Assembly (NCBI RefSeq): GCF_003287285.1
Contig: NZ_QMIG01000003.1
Coordinates: 1 to 64,000, forward strand
Direction of reading: 5' to 3'
Origin: Phytoactinopolyspora halophila
GTDB taxonomy: Bacteria; Actinomycetota; Actinomycetes; Jiangellales; Jiangellaceae
Length of the DNA: 64,000 nucleotides
A program made the translations under genes and the position numbers. Shown one piece after another: positions 41,947-63,823 of this stretch; positions within the stretch are counted from its first letter, which is position 1; each line of letters begins with the position of its first letter. A model generated the notes under the pieces. It did no database searches and was not told the origin of the DNA. It saw only the letters and a program-made list of their open reading frames with translations.

Positions 41947-41953
41947 CCCGCTA

Positions 41954-42024
41954 CTTCCGAATGATCATGTTTGGTACGTTTCCCCGGGCCGTGACACGGC
42001 TGTAGACGTGTTATCGCCCGAGAA
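41954..42024 (+). repeat. Intergenic hairpin repeat, family A copy 2
   Basis: The head TTCCGAATGATCATGTTTGG continues into a degenerate palindrome with inner arms GGGCCGTGACACGGCTG and TAGACGTGTTATCGCCC. It is placed directly behind the Smr stop in the same orientation as the gene. Confidence 0.85.
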
Positions 42025-42041
42025 GACCTGTTACCGCGACA

Positions 42042-42111
42042 CCGCTGTTCCCCGGCACGCCGCTGTTCCCCGGCACGCCGCTGTTCCCCGACACCGTTGT
42101 TGCCGCGACAC
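42042..42111. repeat. Short 18-base tandem repeat
   Basis: CCGCTGTTCCCCGGCACG starts at 42042 and 42060, with diverged further units at 42078 and 42094. It is non-coding as far as I can see. The unit length, lack of spacers and degeneracy exclude a CRISPR array. Confidence 0.8.
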
Positions 42112-42300: not shown

Positions 42301-43470
42301 ATGCGGGGTCCACGCCGTCACCTTCTGATACTGCGTGTGTGGTTACTCGTCGTCGCGCTGGTGGTCGGCACCGGCGGCGTCGCCGTGTCCGCCTCCGCTG
42401 GCACAGCCGCTGGCGCGTCTGCTGGCACGCCCGGTGGGCCGCACGTGCCGCCAGAGCAGGGCGAGCCCAATCGTTCGGCGATGCTGAGCTACGACGACGT
42501 CCAGGAGGAGCTTTTCGCGATCGAGTCCCGGAGCAACGGCGACGTCAAGGTCGAGGAGTTCGGCCGAAGCGGGGAGGGCCGGGCCTTACGTGCGGCGTAC
42601 ATCGGCTCCGGTGACAAGCGGGTGTGGGTCCAGGGCCGAATCCACGGCGACGAACCTTACGGTGCCGAGGCGTCACTCGCGTTCTTGAAGCACCTGGCGG
42701 CCGGTGGCAAGCAGGCGACGCGGGTGCTCGAAGAGATCACGTTCGTCATCATCCCGCTGTACAACCCCGACGGTTACGAAGCGTACATTCGCCAGGACAC
42801 CACGCACGGTATCGACCTCAACCGGGACTGGGGCGTCGATCGGGACACCTTCGATCTGGTCAACCAGATCCGCGAGGAACGTGGCCAGCCGCCGCTACCT
42901 GATTCGGTCTTCGACAACTACACGCAGCACCGGGCCGTGGAGTCGCAGGCGCACTGGTATCTGTGGGAGGAGTTCCGGCCGCACTACATGATCGACATCC
43001 ATCACCAGGGCACGTACTACTCCGGGGACTCCGACGACATGACCACGTTCTCCATGGGCATCTCGCTTGACCCGGGAATGCTCGATGACGAGCAGTGGGA
43101 CGCGGTGCGCCAGATGGCGGTCGTGGCAGCCGACGCGGCCGGGCGCAACGGGGCGGTCAACGTGACTCGGTATCCCTACATCAACATCCCTGAAGGGGTC
43201 ATCTCCGCGGCCATGCTCGACGCACCCGGTCCCGACGGCGAGTACGCCGGCTGGCAGTCGAAGGCGATGTTCTTCGAGACGCGGGGCGGCATTGGCCAGA
43301 AGAGCCGGGGCTACCTGGTGCGACAGAACGTGGAAAGCTTGCGGGCCGTGACCGACGCGATCGCCAACGGCAGTCTTGCGGACGTCGATCCCGGCCGTTG
43401 GGCGGACCTTCCGCCGCGCGGGGAGCCGATTACGCAATGCTCGACGTTCCCGCAGCAGTGCGTTTTCTGA
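42301..43470 (+). CDS. Secreted M14-family zinc carboxypeptidase
   Basis: 389 residues. A signal peptide with hydrophobic core (about 9-30) ends before an Ala/Gly-rich stretch. The zinc pair HxxE is in GRIHGDEPYG (H115, E118). The substrate-binding DLNRDWG, the third zinc ligand in IDIHHQG and the catalytic Glu in MFFETRGG are all present. The family removes C-terminal residues or cleaves peptidoglycan peptides. It is a monocistronic exported protein, flanked on both sides by inverted copies of repeat A. Confidence 0.93.
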   Translation: MRGPRRHLLILRVWLLVVALVVGTGGVAVSASAGTAAGASAGTPGGPHVPPEQGEPNRSAMLSYDDVQEELFAIESRSNGDVKVEEFGRSGEGRALRAAYIGSGDKRVWVQGRIHGDEPYGAEASLAFLKHLAAGGKQATRVLEEITFVIIPLYNPDGYEAYIRQDTTHGIDLNRDWGVDRDTFDLVNQIREERGQPPLPDSVFDNYTQHRAVESQAHWYLWEEFRPHYMIDIHHQGTYYSGDSDDMTTFSMGISLDPGMLDDEQWDAVRQMAVVAADAAGRNGAVNVTRYPYINIPEGVISAAMLDAPGPDGEYAGWQSKAMFFETRGGIGQKSRGYLVRQNVESLRAVTDAIANGSLADVDPGRWADLPPRGEPITQCSTFPQQCVF

Positions 43471-43558
43471 TCAGCCGCCCGGGCCGTGCCAGGCCGCCTC
43501 GGGCCATGCCAGGCCGTGCCAGTCTGCACGAAGGCCCAACACCGCTAGCCCTACGAGG

Positions 43559-43626
43559 TTTTCTCGGGCCGTAACACGTCTACAGCCGTGTCACGGCCCA
43601 AGAAAACGTACCAAACATGATCATTC
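43559..43626 (-). repeat. Intergenic hairpin repeat, family A copy 3 (inverted)
   Basis: Read on the minus strand, the head TTCCGAATGATCATGTTTGG is followed by a 23-base stem (43584-43606 with 43559-43581, 20 of 23 matched, 2-base loop). It lies just behind the cysG stop in the cysG direction, and 90 bases behind the M14 gene. A U-rich TTTT ends the stem, so it should terminate both convergent genes. Confidence 0.9.
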
Positions 43627-43647
43627 GGAAGCAGCGGGGTGGTGGGG

Positions 43648-44868
43648 TTAGCCGGACGCGAGGGTGACGACGTCGCCGACGACGATCACGGCCGGCGGCT
43701 TCGCTCCGACGGCAGCAGCACGGTCGGCGATGTCGTCGAGCGTTCCCGTGGTCAGCCGCTGGCGCGGACCGTAGCCATCCTCGATGACGGCCGCCGGGGT
43801 GGAGGGGTCCATGCCGGCGGCGATCAGGTGGGTGGCGGTGTCGGCGAGCAGCGACACGCCCATGAGGAACACCAGCGTGCCCTGGCTGGACGCCAGCGAT
43901 GGCCAGTCCAGACCCTCGTGTCCGGAAACCACCGTGAACTGCTTGCAGATGCCACGGTGCGTGACCGGGATCCCGAACGCGGCGGGAACCGAGACGGCGC
44001 TGGTGACACCGGGCACCACCTCGACCGGTATCCCGGCGTCGTGGCACGCCCGTGCTTCCTCGCCGCCGCGCCCCAGTACGAACGGGTCACCACCCTTGAG
44101 GCGGACGACATGTGCGCCGGATTCCGCATGTTCGATGAGCAACCGATTGATCTCGTCTTGCGGAACCGGATGGTTTCCGGGAGTCTTGCCGACATCGACC
44201 GTCACGACGTCGTCGTCCAGCTCGTCGATCAGGCTGTGGGGCGCGAGCCGGTCGAACACGACGACGTCCGCGGCAGCCAGCAGCTGGCGCCCACGCGTCG
44301 TGATCATCCCGGCGTCGCCGGGACCGCCCCCGACGAGCGAGACGCAGCCCGAGCGTCGCGGCCGCAGGTGGCGCAGCGGCAGGTCGCCGGTTTCGAGCGC
44401 GGTCTGTACGGCGTTTCGCAACGCCTTCGCGCGCCCGGGGTCGCCACCGCCGCTGACGGCGACGAGCACGTCGCCGACCCGGGCGACGGCCGGCGTCCAG
44501 GCCGAGGCGGCGCCGGCGTCGTCGGCGCGCACACACCAGATCCGCGCGGTTTCCGCCTCGTCGGCAACGATGCTGTCGACGTCGCGCTCGCCGGTTGCGG
44601 TGTGCACGAGCCAGGCACCGTCGAGATCGCCAGGGCGGTACTGGCGCGGCTCCCAGCGGGCGTGGCCATCGGCGACGAGTTCGGCGAGCGGCTCGCACAG
44701 TGCCGGGGCGACCACGACGAGATCGGCGCCGGCGTCCACGAGGGGGCTGGCCTTGCGCGCGGCCACCGGTCCACCGCCAACGACCACCACGCGCCGCCCC
44801 GTGAGATCGAGAAGCAGCGCGTACTTCTGGTGGTCGGTGCCGTTGCGGTCACCGGACGATCGGTGCAC
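43648..44868 (-). CDS. cysG: Sirohaem synthase CysG (SUMT with precorrin-2 dehydrogenase domain)
   Basis: About 406 residues from GTG 44868. The N-terminal NAD-dependent precorrin-2 dehydrogenase/ferrochelatase domain (about 10-170) has LTGRRVVVVGGGPVAARKA. The C-terminal uroporphyrinogen-III methyltransferase has SLVGGGPGDAGMITTRG, LKGGDPFVLGRGGEE and PVTHRG. It supplies sirohaem for the sulfite reductase encoded upstream. The start touches the last base of the cysH stop, making it the last gene of the sulfur operon. Confidence 0.94.
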   Translation of the reverse strand: MHRSSGDRNGTDHQKYALLLDLTGRRVVVVGGGPVAARKASPLVDAGADLVVVAPALCEPLAELVADGHARWEPRQYRPGDLDGAWLVHTATGERDVDSIVADEAETARIWCVRADDAGAASAWTPAVARVGDVLVAVSGGGDPGRAKALRNAVQTALETGDLPLRHLRPRRSGCVSLVGGGPGDAGMITTRGRQLLAAADVVVFDRLAPHSLIDELDDDVVTVDVGKTPGNHPVPQDEINRLLIEHAESGAHVVRLKGGDPFVLGRGGEEARACHDAGIPVEVVPGVTSAVSVPAAFGIPVTHRGICKQFTVVSGHEGLDWPSLASSQGTLVFLMGVSLLADTATHLIAAGMDPSTPAAVIEDGYGPRQRLTTGTLDDIADRAAAVGAKPPAVIVVGDVVTLASG

Positions 44869-45566
44869 TAGATATTTATCCCACACTCGGTCTTGGTGTG
44901 TCCGGCCCATCTCCCCGCACGCGGGTCCTCGCCGGGGGCGACGGGCCGGGTGCACGGCTCACAGCCGATCGAGAGATAGCCGACCTGTTTCAGCGGGTTC
45001 ACGAGAATGTCGTGCTTCGCGATGTACGCTTCGACGTCGTCGTCGGTCCACGTGGCGAGCGGGTTCACCTTGACCTTGCGCCGCTTGGGGTCCCAGGCCA
45101 CCACCGGGGTGTCGGCCCGGGTTGGCGACTCGGCACGGCGCACCCCGCCGGCCCACGCCTCGTATGGGGCGAGTGCGCGATCCAGCGGCCAGACCTTGCG
45201 GATGGCGCAGCACAGGTCGGGGTCGGTCTCGTAGAGCTTGCCGTACTCGGCCTCGTGTTCGGGCACCCGCATGGGATGGGTGACGTTCTCCACGTCGATG
45301 TTGTAGGCCGCCGCGATCGCATCACGTGTCCCCAGCGTCTCGGCGAAGTGGTACCCCGTGTCCAGGAAGAGCACCTTGATGCCGGGCACCGCCTGGGCTG
45401 CCACGTGCGACAGCACGCCGTCGGCCATGGACGCCGTCACGGCGAACTTGTCACCGAACGTCTCGTATGCCCACCGCACGATCGTTCCAGCGGGCGCGCC
45501 TTCGAGCTGGCGGGCAGCGTCGAGGGCGAGCTCTTCGAGCGGCTCGGTAGTGGTGATGGTCATCAC
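44868..45566 (-). CDS. cysH: Assimilatory phosphoadenylyl/adenylyl-sulfate reductase
   Basis: 232 residues. Cysteines C119-C120 (LCCAIRK), C202 and C205 (GCEPC) are the ligands of the [4Fe-4S] cluster of APS-type reductases. The C-terminal ECGI motif (C228) is the catalytic Cys. The cluster ligands favour APS over PAPS as substrate. It overlaps the zinc-ribbon gene by 4 bases (45563-45566). The sulfate adenylyltransferase genes are not in the window. Confidence 0.95.
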   Translation of the reverse strand: MMTITTTEPLEELALDAARQLEGAPAGTIVRWAYETFGDKFAVTASMADGVLSHVAAQAVPGIKVLFLDTGYHFAETLGTRDAIAAAYNIDVENVTHPMRVPEHEAEYGKLYETDPDLCCAIRKVWPLDRALAPYEAWAGGVRRAESPTRADTPVVAWDPKRRKVKVNPLATWTDDDVEAYIAKHDILVNPLKQVGYLSIGCEPCTRPVAPGEDPRAGRWAGHTKTECGINI

Positions 45567-45715
45567 CTACTCCTTCGGGTCGATAGGCCGAGCATCTTCA
45601 CGGAAAATACCCGCAGACAGGATCGGCATTCCCAGCCACCGTCTTCCTCTACGGGAAACAGGTCTTCCTCTCCGCAGAACGGACAGTGCAGGATAGCCGC
45701 GCGCGTCTCGCTCAT
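45563..45715 (-). CDS. Zinc-ribbon mini-protein of the sulfur operon
   Basis: 50 residues from MSETRAAILHCPFCGEEDL at 45715. A four-cysteine ribbon is present: CPFC and CRSC separated by 18 residues. It overlaps sir at its start (45712-45715) and cysH at its stop (45563-45566), so it is translated in register with both. Comparable small conserved proteins sit between sir and cysH in other actinobacteria. Its role is unknown; a metallochaperone or Fe-S/zinc helper for the reductases is conceivable. Confidence 0.85.
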   Translation of the reverse strand: MSETRAAILHCPFCGEEDLFPVEEDGGWECRSCLRVFSVKMLGLSTRRSR

Positions 45716-47376
45716 CTCAGATCCGCATCCTCCGCGCGGCCTGCCCATTGCGCGAATCGTTCGCCGGGCTCCCGCTGGTCGATGAAGCGCCGGACGAGCC
45801 GTTCGATGTAGTCAGGCAGTTCCGCCGCCGTGACCTTGTGCCCCCGCAGCTTGCGCCCGAACCCGGCATCGAGGCCCAGGCCACCGCCGAGGTGCACCTG
45901 GAAGCCTTCCTCGTCCTTGACGATCTGGCCTTTGAGGCCGATGTCGGCGACCTGGATCCGGGCACACGAATTCGGGCAGCCGTTGACGTTCACCGTGATG
46001 GGCACGTCGAGCTGGTCGTGCACGTCGGAGAGCCGCTTTTCCAGCTCGGCGACCGTGTCGGCTCCGAGGCCCTTGGTCTCGACGATCGCCAGCTTGCAGT
46101 ACTCGAGGCCGGTACAGGCCATGGTGTTGCGACGGAAGATGCTCGGACGGGCCTGCAGGCCGATCGCGTCGAGCTCGGCGATCAGGGGCTCGACGGCATC
46201 GGCGTCGACGTCGAGGATCACCAGCTTCTGGTGCGGCGTGGTCCGCAGCCGGTACGACCCGTGTGCCTCGATGATGTCGGCCAGCTTGCCGAGCATAGTT
46301 CCCGACACCCGACCAACCAGCGGCGCCACACCGATGAAGTAGCGCCCGTCGTGCTGGCGATGCACACCGACGTGATCATATTGCTGGGCCGGCACCGGGG
46401 GAGCCGGCCCGTCGATGAGAGCGCGGCCGAGATAGTCGTCGGACTCGAGCACTTCGCGGAACTTCTCGGGCCCCCAGTCCTCGATGAGGAACTTGATCCG
46501 GGCGCGGTGCCGCAGCCGCCGGTAGCCGTAATCGCGGAAGATGGCGGTGACGCCGGCCCACACCTCGGGAACCTCCTCCAACGGAACCCACGCGCCGAGC
46601 CGCTTGCCCAGTTTGGGATTCGTGGAGAGACCGCCACCGACCCACAGGTCGAGCCCGGGGCCGTGCTCGGGGTGGTGGACACCGACGAAGGCGATGTCGT
46701 TGGTCTCGTGGACGACGTCAGGCAGGCCGCTGATGGCCGTCTTGTACTTGCGCGGCAGGTTGGAGAACTCCTGCGAGCCGATGTAGCGGCGCTGGATCTC
46801 CTCGATGGCCCACGCGGGGTCGAGGACTTCGTCGGCGGCGATCCCGGCAACGGGGGAGCCGAGCACGACGCGCGGCGCATCGCCGCACGCCTCCATCGTG
46901 GACAGACCCACGCTCTCGAGTTTATCCCAAATGGCCGGGACGTCCTCAATTCGTATCCAGTGCAGCTGCACGTTCTGCCGGTCGGTGACGTCAGCGGTGT
47001 CTCGTGCATACGTGGTGGACACGTCGGCGATCACCCGCAGCTGTTCGGTAGACAGGGCACCACCGTCGATGCGGATGCGCATCATGAAGTACTCGTCGTC
47101 GAGCTCCTGGGGCTCCAGGACCGCGGTCTTGCCGCCGGGAATGCCGGGACGACGCTGCGTGTAAATCCCGTACCAGCGAAAACGTCCCCGAAGATCCTGG
47201 GGATCGATGCTGGCGAAGCCCTTCTTGCTGTAGATGTTCTCGATCCGGGCGCGGACGTTCAGCGCGTCGTCGTCACGCTTGGTCCGCTCGTTGGGGTTGA
47301 GCGGTTCCAGATGTCCGAGCGCCCATTGCCCCTCGCCGCGGGAGCGGCGTGGGATATCTACCTGACTGCGTGGCAT
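45712..47376 (-). CDS. sir: Ferredoxin-dependent assimilatory sulfite (nitrite/sulfite) reductase
   Basis: About 554 residues from ATG 47376. The sirohaem/[4Fe-4S] cysteines appear as TMACTGLEYCKLAIVETK and, later, NGCPNSCARIQVADIGLKG. The first half has the ferrodoxin-like repeat with DVTDRQNVQLHWIRIEDVP. It reduces sulfite to sulfide with six electrons. It is first in the operon sir-zinc ribbon-cysH-cysG, preceded by a cysteine leader peptide 114 bases upstream. Sequence alone cannot exclude nitrite as an additional substrate. Confidence 0.95.
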   Translation of the reverse strand: MPRSQVDIPRRSRGEGQWALGHLEPLNPNERTKRDDDALNVRARIENIYSKKGFASIDPQDLRGRFRWYGIYTQRRPGIPGGKTAVLEPQELDDEYFMMRIRIDGGALSTEQLRVIADVSTTYARDTADVTDRQNVQLHWIRIEDVPAIWDKLESVGLSTMEACGDAPRVVLGSPVAGIAADEVLDPAWAIEEIQRRYIGSQEFSNLPRKYKTAISGLPDVVHETNDIAFVGVHHPEHGPGLDLWVGGGLSTNPKLGKRLGAWVPLEEVPEVWAGVTAIFRDYGYRRLRHRARIKFLIEDWGPEKFREVLESDDYLGRALIDGPAPPVPAQQYDHVGVHRQHDGRYFIGVAPLVGRVSGTMLGKLADIIEAHGSYRLRTTPHQKLVILDVDADAVEPLIAELDAIGLQARPSIFRRNTMACTGLEYCKLAIVETKGLGADTVAELEKRLSDVHDQLDVPITVNVNGCPNSCARIQVADIGLKGQIVKDEEGFQVHLGGGLGLDAGFGRKLRGHKVTAAELPDYIERLVRRFIDQREPGERFAQWAGRAEDADLR

Positions 47377-47489
47377 AGAAGTATCTCGTCCTCGAGAGGG
47401 TCGGGGACGCACGTCCGCGCGCGGGTCAGATCGACGGTGACCTCAAAGCCGACACGTCCGAGCGCCCGGGATGATCTACGGGCGGCGGG

Positions 47490-47576
47490 TCAGCAGGCCA
47501 GACACATCATGCTCGAGACGCGACGGTAGTCCACGTGGCGCCGGACCACGAGGAACAGTATCGACGCGTGCAACAT
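47490..47576 (-). CDS. Cysteine-responsive leader peptide of the sulfur operon
   Basis: 28 residues ending in RRHVDYRRVSSMMCLAC. It matches the RRHVD-x-x-RV pattern of short 'putative leader peptides' found before actinobacterial sulfur genes. Two Cys codons are within the last four codons, so ribosome stalling at low cysteine could control downstream sir expression. The ATG is at 47576 with AGGGGC just upstream. The 114-base gap to sir would hold the attenuator structure. Confidence 0.8.
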   Translation of the reverse strand: MLHASILFLVVRRHVDYRRVSSMMCLAC

Positions 47577-47599
47577 GCCCCTATAGTCGCATGCGGCGA

Positions 47600-47656
47600 G
47601 GGACACGACGAGATGGCGTTCAATATATGGACCACCGTGTCTCACATGGTGTCGGA
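47600..47656 (-). promoter_or_regulatory. Promoter region of the sulfur operon
   Basis: On the minus strand, a TATATT -10-like hexamer (about 47615-47620) lies after the dyad CACCATG-TGAGA-CACGGTG. The dyad would be at or upstream of -35. A cysteine or sulfur regulator is a plausible ligand, but none is encoded nearby. Confidence 0.45.
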
Positions 47657-49378
47657 TTAGCGCGTGGGCGTGGCGCGGTCGACGATCGCGCGTGCGTCCA
47701 CGGCGGACGGAAGCAGGCCGAACACGCCGTGCGAGGCATCGAGCCGGGTGGCGCAAAAGGCGTCGGCCACCTCGGCCGGCGCGAAACGGATCAGCAACGA
47801 CGCCTGGAGCAAGACCGCCATGCGTGCGGCGAGCACGCGGGCTCGCCGCAGCGCCGCCTCGCGGTCGGCGGCGGCGTCCCGCAGCAGCACCTCTACCTCG
47901 GAGAGCGCCGTACGCAGCGATTCGGCCGTCGCCGGGGGAGTGTCGTCGCTGCCGGCCACGTCGCTCACCTCCGCACGCCACGCGTCGACGGCCTCCGGCT
48001 CGCGGGACAACACCCGCAGCATGTCCAGCGCCTGGATGTTGCCCGCGCCTTCCCAGATGGAGTTCAGCGGCGCTTCCCGGTAGAGCCGCGGCATGCCGCT
48101 GTCCTCGACGTAGCCGTTCCCGCCCAGGCATTCGAGCGCCTCGCCGACGGCGTGTGGGGTGCGCTTGCACACCCAGAACTTGGCCAGGGGAAGGCCGATC
48201 CGGCGCAGCGCCCGCTCGTGGGGATCGCCGGGACGGTCAACGGCGGCGGCCAGGCGCATCGCGAGAGCGGTCGCGGCTTCCGACTCGATCGCGAGATCAG
48301 CCAGGACGGCCTGCATCAGCGCCGCATCCGTCAGCTTGGTGCCGAACGCGCTGCGGTGTGCCGCATGCCAGCTCGCCTCCGCGACGGCGCGGCGCATCAA
48401 CGCGGACGAGCCGAGCACGCAATCCAGCCGGGTGGCAGCGACCATCTCGATGATGGTGGCAACGCCCCGCCCTTCGGCCCCCAGCAGCTGGGCCGACGTG
48501 CCCTCCAGCTCGATTTCCGCCGACGCGTTCGCCCGGTTGCCGAGCTTGTCCTTGAGCCGCTGGATCCGGAACGGGTTGCGCGAGCCGTCGTCGCGAATCC
48601 GGGGAACGACGAAGCAGCTCAGCCCGCCGGGTGCGTGGGCCAGCACGAGAAACACGTCGTTCATCGGTGCCGAGCAGAACCACTTGTGCCCGGTGAGGTG
48701 AAACCAGCCGTCCGCGCCGGGCTCGGCCGAGGTCGTGTTGGCCCGCACGTCGGAGCCGCCTTGCTTCTCCGTCATCGCCATACCCGCCAGCACGCCGGCC
48801 TTGCGCCCGGGCGGGCGAAGCCCGGGGTCGTAGCTCGTCGACGTCAACCCGGGCTCCCAGCTCGCCGCGATTTCCGGGTCTGTCCGCAGCGCCGGCACCG
48901 CCGCGTACGTCATCGAGATGGGACACATGTGTGCGGCCTCCACCTGGCTCCACACCAGGAAACCGGCTGCCCGGGTGGCGTGCGTACCGCCCGATGGCGA
49001 CCCGGACGGCGACCACGCGGCCGCGTGCAAGCCGTACTCCACCGCGATCTCCATCAAACGGTGATACGACGGGTGGAACTCGACCTCGTCGACGCGGTGC
49101 CCGTAGCGGTCGTGGGTGCGCAGCGCCGGCGGGTTACGGTCGGCCTGCCACGCCCACTGCTGCGCCCGCTCCGAACCCGCGAGCGTGCCGAGCTCGTGCA
49201 GCCGGGATCGATTGCCGTCGCCGTATCGGTGGAACGCCTCGACGAGAGCGGCGTCGGCGCCGAACACGTCGTACTCGGCGAGCGGTGGCGGCTGGTTGGT
49301 GACGGCGTGTGTCGAGCCCACGCCACAACCGTACGGCAGGTCGGCCGCCATCCGCCCGGGTGAAAACCCGTCACCCAC
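47657..49378 (-). CDS. Acyl-CoA dehydrogenase, AidB-like
   Basis: 573 residues from the first ATG; a GTG at 49321 (VGSTHAVTNQPPPLAEYDVF) or ATG at 49351 may be used, giving about 554. The AidB/isovaleryl-type core is clear: AMTEKQGGSDVRANTT, FHLTGHKWFCSAP, and VEDSGMPRLYREAPLNSIWEGAGNI near the C-terminus. AidB-type enzymes are FAD proteins linked to the alkylation response and perhaps to DNA. The N-terminal extension over standard acyl-CoA dehydrogenases is present. It is divergent from rsgA. Confidence 0.9.
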   Translation of the reverse strand: MGDGFSPGRMAADLPYGCGVGSTHAVTNQPPPLAEYDVFGADAALVEAFHRYGDGNRSRLHELGTLAGSERAQQWAWQADRNPPALRTHDRYGHRVDEVEFHPSYHRLMEIAVEYGLHAAAWSPSGSPSGGTHATRAAGFLVWSQVEAAHMCPISMTYAAVPALRTDPEIAASWEPGLTSTSYDPGLRPPGRKAGVLAGMAMTEKQGGSDVRANTTSAEPGADGWFHLTGHKWFCSAPMNDVFLVLAHAPGGLSCFVVPRIRDDGSRNPFRIQRLKDKLGNRANASAEIELEGTSAQLLGAEGRGVATIIEMVAATRLDCVLGSSALMRRAVAEASWHAAHRSAFGTKLTDAALMQAVLADLAIESEAATALAMRLAAAVDRPGDPHERALRRIGLPLAKFWVCKRTPHAVGEALECLGGNGYVEDSGMPRLYREAPLNSIWEGAGNIQALDMLRVLSREPEAVDAWRAEVSDVAGSDDTPPATAESLRTALSEVEVLLRDAAADREAALRRARVLAARMAVLLQASLLIRFAPAEVADAFCATRLDASHGVFGLLPSAVDARAIVDRATPTR

Positions 49379-63722: not shown

Positions 63723-63752
63723 GGAGAGAGGCCCCGCCAAGGCCTCACCTCG

Positions 63753-63823
63753 GTGGAGTGGCCGAGAGGCGAGGCAACGGCCTGCAAAGCCGTCTACACG
63801 GGTTCAAATCCCGTCTCCACCTC
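63753..63823 (+). tRNA. tRNA-Cys (GCA)
   Basis: The acceptor GGTGGAG pairs with CTCCACC. The anticodon stem-loop ACGGC-CTGCAAA-GCCGT gives GCA. It is second in the cluster, 30 bases after tRNA-Gly. Confidence 0.97.

Follow-up and report, generated by a model that had tools for sequence, protein, structure and literature searches.

The window analysed here, a 64,000-nucleotide stretch of Phytoactinopolyspora halophila DNA (contig NZ_QMIG01000003.1, positions 1 to 64,000), carries on its minus strand an operon-like row made up of sir, a 61-amino-acid zinc-ribbon-like frame, cysH and a cysG-like gene, with a short reading frame directly ahead of sir. The features discussed below are as follows.

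43648-44955 (-): cysG-like siroheme synthase gene, start putative (TIGR01469 and TIGR01470, both over their cut-offs)
44868-45566 (-): cysH, APS/PAPS reductase (PF01507, 1.1e-42; NF002537 over its cut-off)
45563-45748 (-): 61-amino-acid, CxxC-containing zinc-ribbon-like reading frame between sir and cysH (sub-threshold Pfam and NCBIfam matches only)
45712-47376 (-): sir-type gene, nitrite/sulfite reductase family (Pfam NIR_SIR, 1.7e-58; NIR_SIR_ferr, 2.8e-40)
47377-47489 (-): untranslated gap between the leader stop and sir (C-over-G skew 0.134, no excess folding)
47388-47408 (-): predicted hairpin GUCC-C-CGA/UCG-A-GGAC over the sir Shine-Dalgarno sequence (consensus pairs and centroid fold)
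47490-47576 (-): putative leader peptide frame, ATG to TGA, MLHASILFLVVRRHVDYRRVSSMMCLAC (reading-frame letters and sub-cut-off NCBIfam matches)
47493-47495 (-): Cys28, TGC, rarely common to other leaders
47502-47504 (-): Cys25, TGT, the conserved position-13 Cys codon and proposed sensing codon
47529-47543 (-): RRHVD motif, residues 12-16 of the leader translation
47583-47588 (-): candidate -10 hexamer GACTAT, placed for a start at the leader ATG, with A at -11, T at -7 and C at -1
63752-63823 (+): tRNA-Cys(GCA)

The leader frame and its neighbouring genes

The leader frame begins with an ATG at 47576 and ends with a TGA stop at 47492-47490. The preliminary description had reported a 28-codon frame with an RRHVD signature and two Cys among its last four residues, and all of this was borne out (Cys25 and Cys28, on the minus strand). 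It had also placed the frame 114 bases ahead of sir; the upstream position stands, but the gap from the leader TGA to the sir ATG (47376) measures 113 bases (47489-47377). On the other side, 80 bases separate the leader from the end of an acyl-CoA dehydrogenase gene of AidB type, also on the minus strand. The pattern R[RLI]H[VIL]D-x8-C, in a frame with its stop at 34 codons or fewer, occurred once in the window and in none of 200 shuffled windows (mononucleotide shuffles within 1-kb blocks); conservation upstream of sir is a stronger test of the leader than these shuffled windows.

We picked the sir start codon by its Shine-Dalgarno sequence (GAGGAC, 47393-47388). No NCBIfam model scored above its cut-off with the sir-type protein, and the name sir is therefore taken from the Pfam domains and from the neighbouring cysH and cysG. 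The nearest sir proteins come from Phytoactinopolyspora (86 and 85%), Haloactinopolyspora (83%) and Jiangella (at most 82%), and the host is Jiangellaceae-like. The zinc-ribbon-like frame overlaps the end of sir. Elsewhere in the window, an 83-nt inverted repeat (arms 41947-42029 and 43556-43638, 92% complementary and 1526 nt apart) flanks a plus-strand gene at 42301-43470, whose protein we take to resemble an M14-type carboxypeptidase. Three head-to-tail GCCGCTGTTCCCCGGCAC-like copies with an 18-nt step (42034-42094) adjoin one arm of this repeat.

Conservation of the leader, its cysteine and its codon

Conservation was scored in 81 sir regions, namely 80 loci retained out of 102 relatives plus the window; here and below, counts are raw and ignore kinship. 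An RRHVD-type leader lay ahead of sir in 74 of the 81 regions, with the exact motif in 62 and with RLHVD, RIHVD, RRHID, RRHLD, RLHID or RHHVD in 12 more. By these patterns, seven regions had no leader (L070, L108, L109, L114, L116, L117 and L118). In an alignment of 26 leaders, R12, H14, D16 and C25 were invariant, and a profile built from them, run on class genomes only, matched 219 of the 296 at E<=0.01. Both the recurrence ahead of sir and the spread through the class favour reading the frame as a cysteine leader peptide. Among the class-wide profile matches listed, 60 were taken as stretches and 30 as loci.

Two further observations concern individual genomes. In L108, from a Micrococcales MAG, the stretch about 170 to 77 bases upstream of the sir match holds a poly-Cys frame that closes with MCCCMCCSA and lacks RRHVD. 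Genome G235 has 20 leader-profile matches at E<=0.01 (L210-L229); the genes that follow them include transporter, luciferase-like, DUF4395, acyl-CoA dehydrogenase and amidohydrolase genes.

We also surveyed the genes downstream of leaders at 130 loci, 11 of which were skipped for having no leader at the expected place. By a simple motif rule, and in a sample that was not random, a sir-type frame lay downstream in 87 of the 119 leader loci with a callable frame. Pfam was run on 16 near-leader frames chosen by eye, two of them from a second leader of the host. The other 14, all soon after leaders, gave matches to PALP (CysM type), ThiS (CysO type), Cys_Met_Meta_PP, PAPS reductase, DUF4395, luciferase-like monooxygenase, NMT1-type and SBP_bac_5 binding proteins, two ABC permeases, acyl-CoA dehydrogenase and amidohydrolase, and two of them (L221 and L214) had no Pfam match. 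In L165 it is the second gene that gave the PALP match, and in L248 the frame matching PAPS reductase begins 306 bases past the leader. The sulfur genes downstream of leaders speak for the cysteine leader reading, whereas some post-leader genes have no evident sulfur link, which speaks against it.

The host's second leader lies on another contig and is a weaker profile match (E 0.115). It has a GTG start, reads MYHTELTRRRAIDYRRVATMLCRMS and uses TGT as its Cys codon. Downstream lie a DUF4395 frame, whose first and second ATG codons are 83 and 101 bases from the end of the leader, and then a rhodanese gene. A mycobacterial leader before cysA2 has been published (PMC4633059), and this example suggests, by analogy, that the host's second leader may be its counterpart.

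Counting the first Arg of RRHVD as position 0, we found that, of the 46 distinct peptides from the leaders located through sir, a set independent of any leader profile, 45 carry a Cys exactly at position 13; the lone exception, L103, has its Cys at 14. In a wider set, a Cys lay at position 13 in 138 of 140 peptides, a count that is not independent because the set was partly fetched with profiles containing the Cys. A single Cys followed the motif in 36 of the 46 distinct sir leaders, making the single-Cys RRHVD form commoner in our sample than multi-Cys forms, and 83 peptides of the wider set had one Cys only. In the wider set, three further codons most often stood between the Cys and the stop (61 out of 138), with tails ranging from 0 to 12 codons.

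The window's second Cys, at position 16, recurred in 2 of the 46 distinct sir leaders (window included) and in 14 of the 140 peptides of the wider set; among 10 Jiangellaceae sequences, it was present in the window and L040 only. Thus, of the pair of Cys codons that had been put forward as the sensor, both are present, but the single conserved Cys25 (TGT) is more likely to be the sensor than the pair. One conserved Cys would make a weak sensor compared with the Cys-codon runs of mycobacterial-type leaders, a point against the cysteine leader reading.

Codon choice at position 13 was strongly biased. The Cys codon was TGT in 155 of 164 distinct leaders and TGC in 9. In the same leaders, codons 5-12, 14 and 15 ended in A/T in 3-22%, and codons -8 to -5, -1 and 0 did so in 27-46%. 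Across the 74 leader-bearing sir regions, the position-13 codon was TGT in 62, TGC in 11 and a non-Cys codon in 1. In a separate tally of leaders, there were likewise 11 TGC rows; these belong to Labedaea, Lentzea, Amycolatopsis, one further genome and a strain bearing the title Nocardia sp. NRRL S-836. TGT counts vary slightly between sets, reflecting differing sets and differing duplicate-removal rules. As background, TGT accounted for 24 of 439 Cys codons in sir genes and 526 of 4396 in high-GC3 frames. At other leader Cys codons, TGT was used in 2 of 17 cases at position 6, 12 of 28 at position 9, 13 of 21 at position 11, 12 of 22 at position 12 and 11 of 38 at positions 14-24, and in 1 of 10 before the motif. 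The p-values for the TGT bias ignore kinship and are descriptive only.

The tRNA-Cys(GCA) of the window lies inside a Gly-Cys-Val tRNA cluster, about 16 kb from the cysteine leader. The genome (98.94% complete) gave 45 tRNA matches, and this was the only tRNA-Cys among them. As the sole tRNA-Cys found, it would need to serve UGU codons as well as UGC. By the general rules of decoding, the GCA anticodon would read UGU by G-U wobble, and presumably more slowly than UGC. So strong a preference for UGU at a single site, where the genomes use UGC elsewhere, is a sharp signature of sensing at the codon level. In a partial literature search, which left Canestrari 2020 outside its range, we found no mention of UGU choice in such leaders.

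Start site, proposed stalling and read-out

Representative leaders were hand-picked from the 67 of the 74 leader-bearing sir regions that fitted a coordinate pattern: 34 for the start-site profile, 35 for Shine-Dalgarno pairing, and 33 each for stall simulation, Shine-Dalgarno masking and gap skew. When the 34 representatives were aligned at the start codon, T at -36 (25), G at -34 (28), A at -11 (23), T at -7 (23) and C at -1 (30) stood out, and no conserved Shine-Dalgarno sequence was seen ahead of the leader start. This profile is arranged like a promoter with its transcription start on the start codon; judged by it, the leader transcript probably starts at or beside the ATG, that is, it is leaderless. 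In the window, the upstream letters gave no fit to a -35 box, and a generic promoter scan found no promoter, both of which count against the cysteine leader reading.

We consider it quite probable, on sequence grounds, that the frame is a cysteine leader peptide controlling the sir operon, with a leaderless start, a ribosome stall at Cys25 and Rho as the favoured read-out. The attenuation by cysteine supply that had been suggested for this locus finds support in the position of the leader, its family, the start-site signature, the apparent selection on the Cys codon and a skewed base composition of the gap across the family.

We infer a cysteine response in Phytoactinopolyspora halophila, and with it a stall, a read-out and a role for the peptide, along the following lines. 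The leaderless transcript would be translated from its first codon. With Cys-tRNA scarce, the ribosome would wait at the UGU of Cys25, with three more codons to go ahead of the stop, and would cover the start of the 113-base gap, so that sir, cysH and cysG would be expressed. With ample cysteine, the ribosome would reach the stop and depart, and the C-rich, G-poor gap would be open to Rho and to an early end of transcription.

The C-over-G skew of the gap averaged 0.244 in the 33 representatives, compared with 0.031 in a control set of 174 upstream regions, located with a simple gene finder; the same representatives gave 0.058 for the sequence ahead of the leader and 0.056 for sir. Gaps behind non-sir leaders were skewed too (0.193, n=23; sir leaders 0.260, n=75). 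The family-wide skew fits Rho loading and is not proof of it, and the case for Rho is weak in this window because its skew of 0.134 differs from the control mean by less than one standard deviation (0.136). Rho is our favoured read-out, at slightly less than an even chance; unmasking of the sir Shine-Dalgarno sequence comes next, at roughly one chance in three, and other mechanisms share the remainder. Seliverstov et al. 2005 had proposed Rho and called the proposal weak because motifs were not conserved (PMC1262725); the gap skew gives numbers to that proposal and reopens the question of a Rho read-out.

Translation attenuation offers another read-out: with ample cysteine, RNA structure would hide the sir Shine-Dalgarno sequence, and a ribosome stalled at Cys would open it. 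We regard this as possible and on balance doubtful. The consensus pairs of the hairpin over GAGGAC are kept in 8-10 of 10 Jiangellaceae sequences, and the hairpin also appears in the centroid fold. The Canestrari 2020 study reportedly presented leaders of M. smegmatis as working by translation attenuation. The same term is applied to the M. smegmatis mechanism in PMC13236596.

The pairing, stall and masking tests went mostly against translation attenuation. The hairpin showed no compensatory change in the 10 Jiangellaceae sequences, and RNAalifold run on them gave a covariation term of only -0.17. Alternative hairpins, which had been thought to lie in 47377-47489, did not emerge from fold prediction: z-scores were 0.00 for the gap and 0.71 for the leader, indicating no excess RNA structure. 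Taken over all representatives, a simulated stall at Cys did not change access to the Shine-Dalgarno sequence (0.275 vs 0.248, p 0.45, n=33; in the window, 0.17 vs 0.18), but opened it by >0.2 in 4 of the 33 species. Masking of the Shine-Dalgarno sequence was not significant against shuffles (mean z -0.26, p 0.13, 33 representatives). Pairing between the leader and the Shine-Dalgarno region did not stand out against synonymous recodings (mean z +0.46, n=35; 1 of 35 under 0.05) or against swaps between species (permutation p 0.86).

Several RNA candidates were tried and rejected. A pairing of CGUCUCGAG with CUCGAGGACG looked attractive in the window and failed against synonymous recodings (window p 0.19). 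A leader-internal stem, GUGR/YCAC, showed a compensatory change in Jiangellaceae but not, by eye, in Streptomyces. An RNA constraint at the conserved AGC (Ser10) and GTG (Val-2) was dropped; the Ser10 AGC may be frozen because a change to TCN takes two steps, and GTG was weaker in the wider set (76 out of 101). A conserved C after TGT (31 out of 34 representatives) was not upheld in the wider set (65 out of 108). Rfam, run on the whole window at gathering thresholds, returned four tRNAs only.

The fixed distance from RRHVD to the Cys suggests that the nascent peptide helps the stall. Taken further, and by analogy with TnaC, the peptide itself would be the sensor, its RRHVD segment sitting in the upper exit tunnel and stalling the ribosome at Cys25; such an arrest peptide seems to us less likely than not. 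The spacing is kept (45/46 and 138/140) even though the number of codons behind the Cys ranges from 0 to 12. In the 164 leaders, residues likewise stay the same over a range of third bases (R0: 51 C, 50 G, 40 A and 23 T; Asp: 127 C and 37 T), which, together with the fixed Cys distance, argues for selection on the peptide. If Cys25 were the empty A-site codon, R0 and D4 would precede the P-site residue by 12 and 8 positions. However, the likeness to TnaC is one of geometry only, common descent could also keep the spacing, the poly-Cys frame of L108 occupies the same place without RRHVD, and the Cys of L103 is at 14.

Conserved residues and free synonymous change at several codons would also suit a small protein acting in trans, a very improbable reading because the UGU choice and the layout of a leader plus sulfur genes fit a decoding role in cis better. 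A classical transcription attenuator, which a Cys codon near the stop before a biosynthetic operon would suit, is scarcely credible given that 47000-48000 contains no terminator-like site and folding shows no excess structure.

Comparison with known leader peptides

The leader scored 25.7 bits (E=6.2e-06) with NF042936, leader_Ms4527A (cut-off 45 bits), and 23.5 bits (E=3e-05) with NF042934, cis_reg_atten (cut-off 27 bits), a putative leader peptide profile that it matches over its full length (positions 1-19 of 19). Being under both curated cut-offs, it is not filed as a formal NCBIfam member, and this weighs against the cysteine leader reading. NF042936 was over its cut-off in none of the 22 genomes of the order. 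Within one family of the class, that of G024, it matched 51 of the 61 genomes at E<=0.01, 13 of them over the cut-off; at the same threshold it matched none of 14 named control genomes. At laxer limits, some control genomes matched as well (NF042936 in 5 of 14 at E<=1; NF042934 in 10 of 14 at E<=10), so weak profile matches mean little.

The frame is short, has Cys codons close to the stop and immediately precedes sulfur genes, as is typical of the cysteine-responsive leader peptides of Actinobacteria. Judged by position and core motif, it is the counterpart of mycobacterial Ms4527A and thus of a known kind. Ms4527A is described as a leaderless small ORF before nirA/Msmeg_4527 (PMC4633059) and shares with our leader the sir/nirA-type gene downstream, an RRHVD-type core and a Cys near the stop. 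By contrast, Ms4527A-type leaders over the cut-off carry runs such as KRVCSCCCLP, whereas the leader in the window has one conserved Cys. M. smegmatis leaders respond to cysteine according to Canestrari 2020 as cited in PMC9031893 and PMC13236596.

Cys leader peptides were predicted before Mycobacterium cys operons by Seliverstov et al. 2005; as far as the available part of PMC1262725 goes, they resemble our leader in being short Cys-codon ORFs before actinobacterial cys operons, without a terminator and with Rho proposed, and differ in their Cys-codon runs (Mycobacterium, P. acnes and B. longum). That part of PMC1262725 makes no mention that we found of single-Cys RRHVD leaders or of UGU choice, and searches for RRHVD, Ms5788A and ribulon returned no relevant literature.

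In TnaC of E. coli, the critical residues W12 and D16 lie 12 and 8 residues before P24 at the P site, the same distances as for R0 and D4 of the RRHVD leader, and the stall keeps Rho off (PMC10941005). However, the signal for TnaC is free Trp, and it is abundance of Trp that brings on the stall, whereas the predicted arrest in our leader would answer a shortage of Cys-tRNA. The uORFC-8-2 motif before cysS in Rhodobacterales is also a Cys-codon uORF but has tandem Cys codons, mostly UGC, and an intrinsic terminator (PMC8632094).

Taken at its broadest, the comparison would make RRHVD leaders class-wide nascent-chain cysteine sensors, with the RRHVD-x8-C motif at the tunnel constriction, a slow, wobble-read UGU in the A site, and one module repeated before many sulfur operons (as with the 20 matches in one genome), coordinated through the ribosome and read out by Rho; the mycobacterial poly-Cys tracts would then be a later elaboration. 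We offer this as speculation, and rather improbable speculation. The cysteine leader reading itself would extend cysteine leader control to Jiangellaceae, and the features that the family shares, namely UGU at one position, a fixed RRHVD-to-Cys spacing and a gap with C over G, make its mechanism testable.
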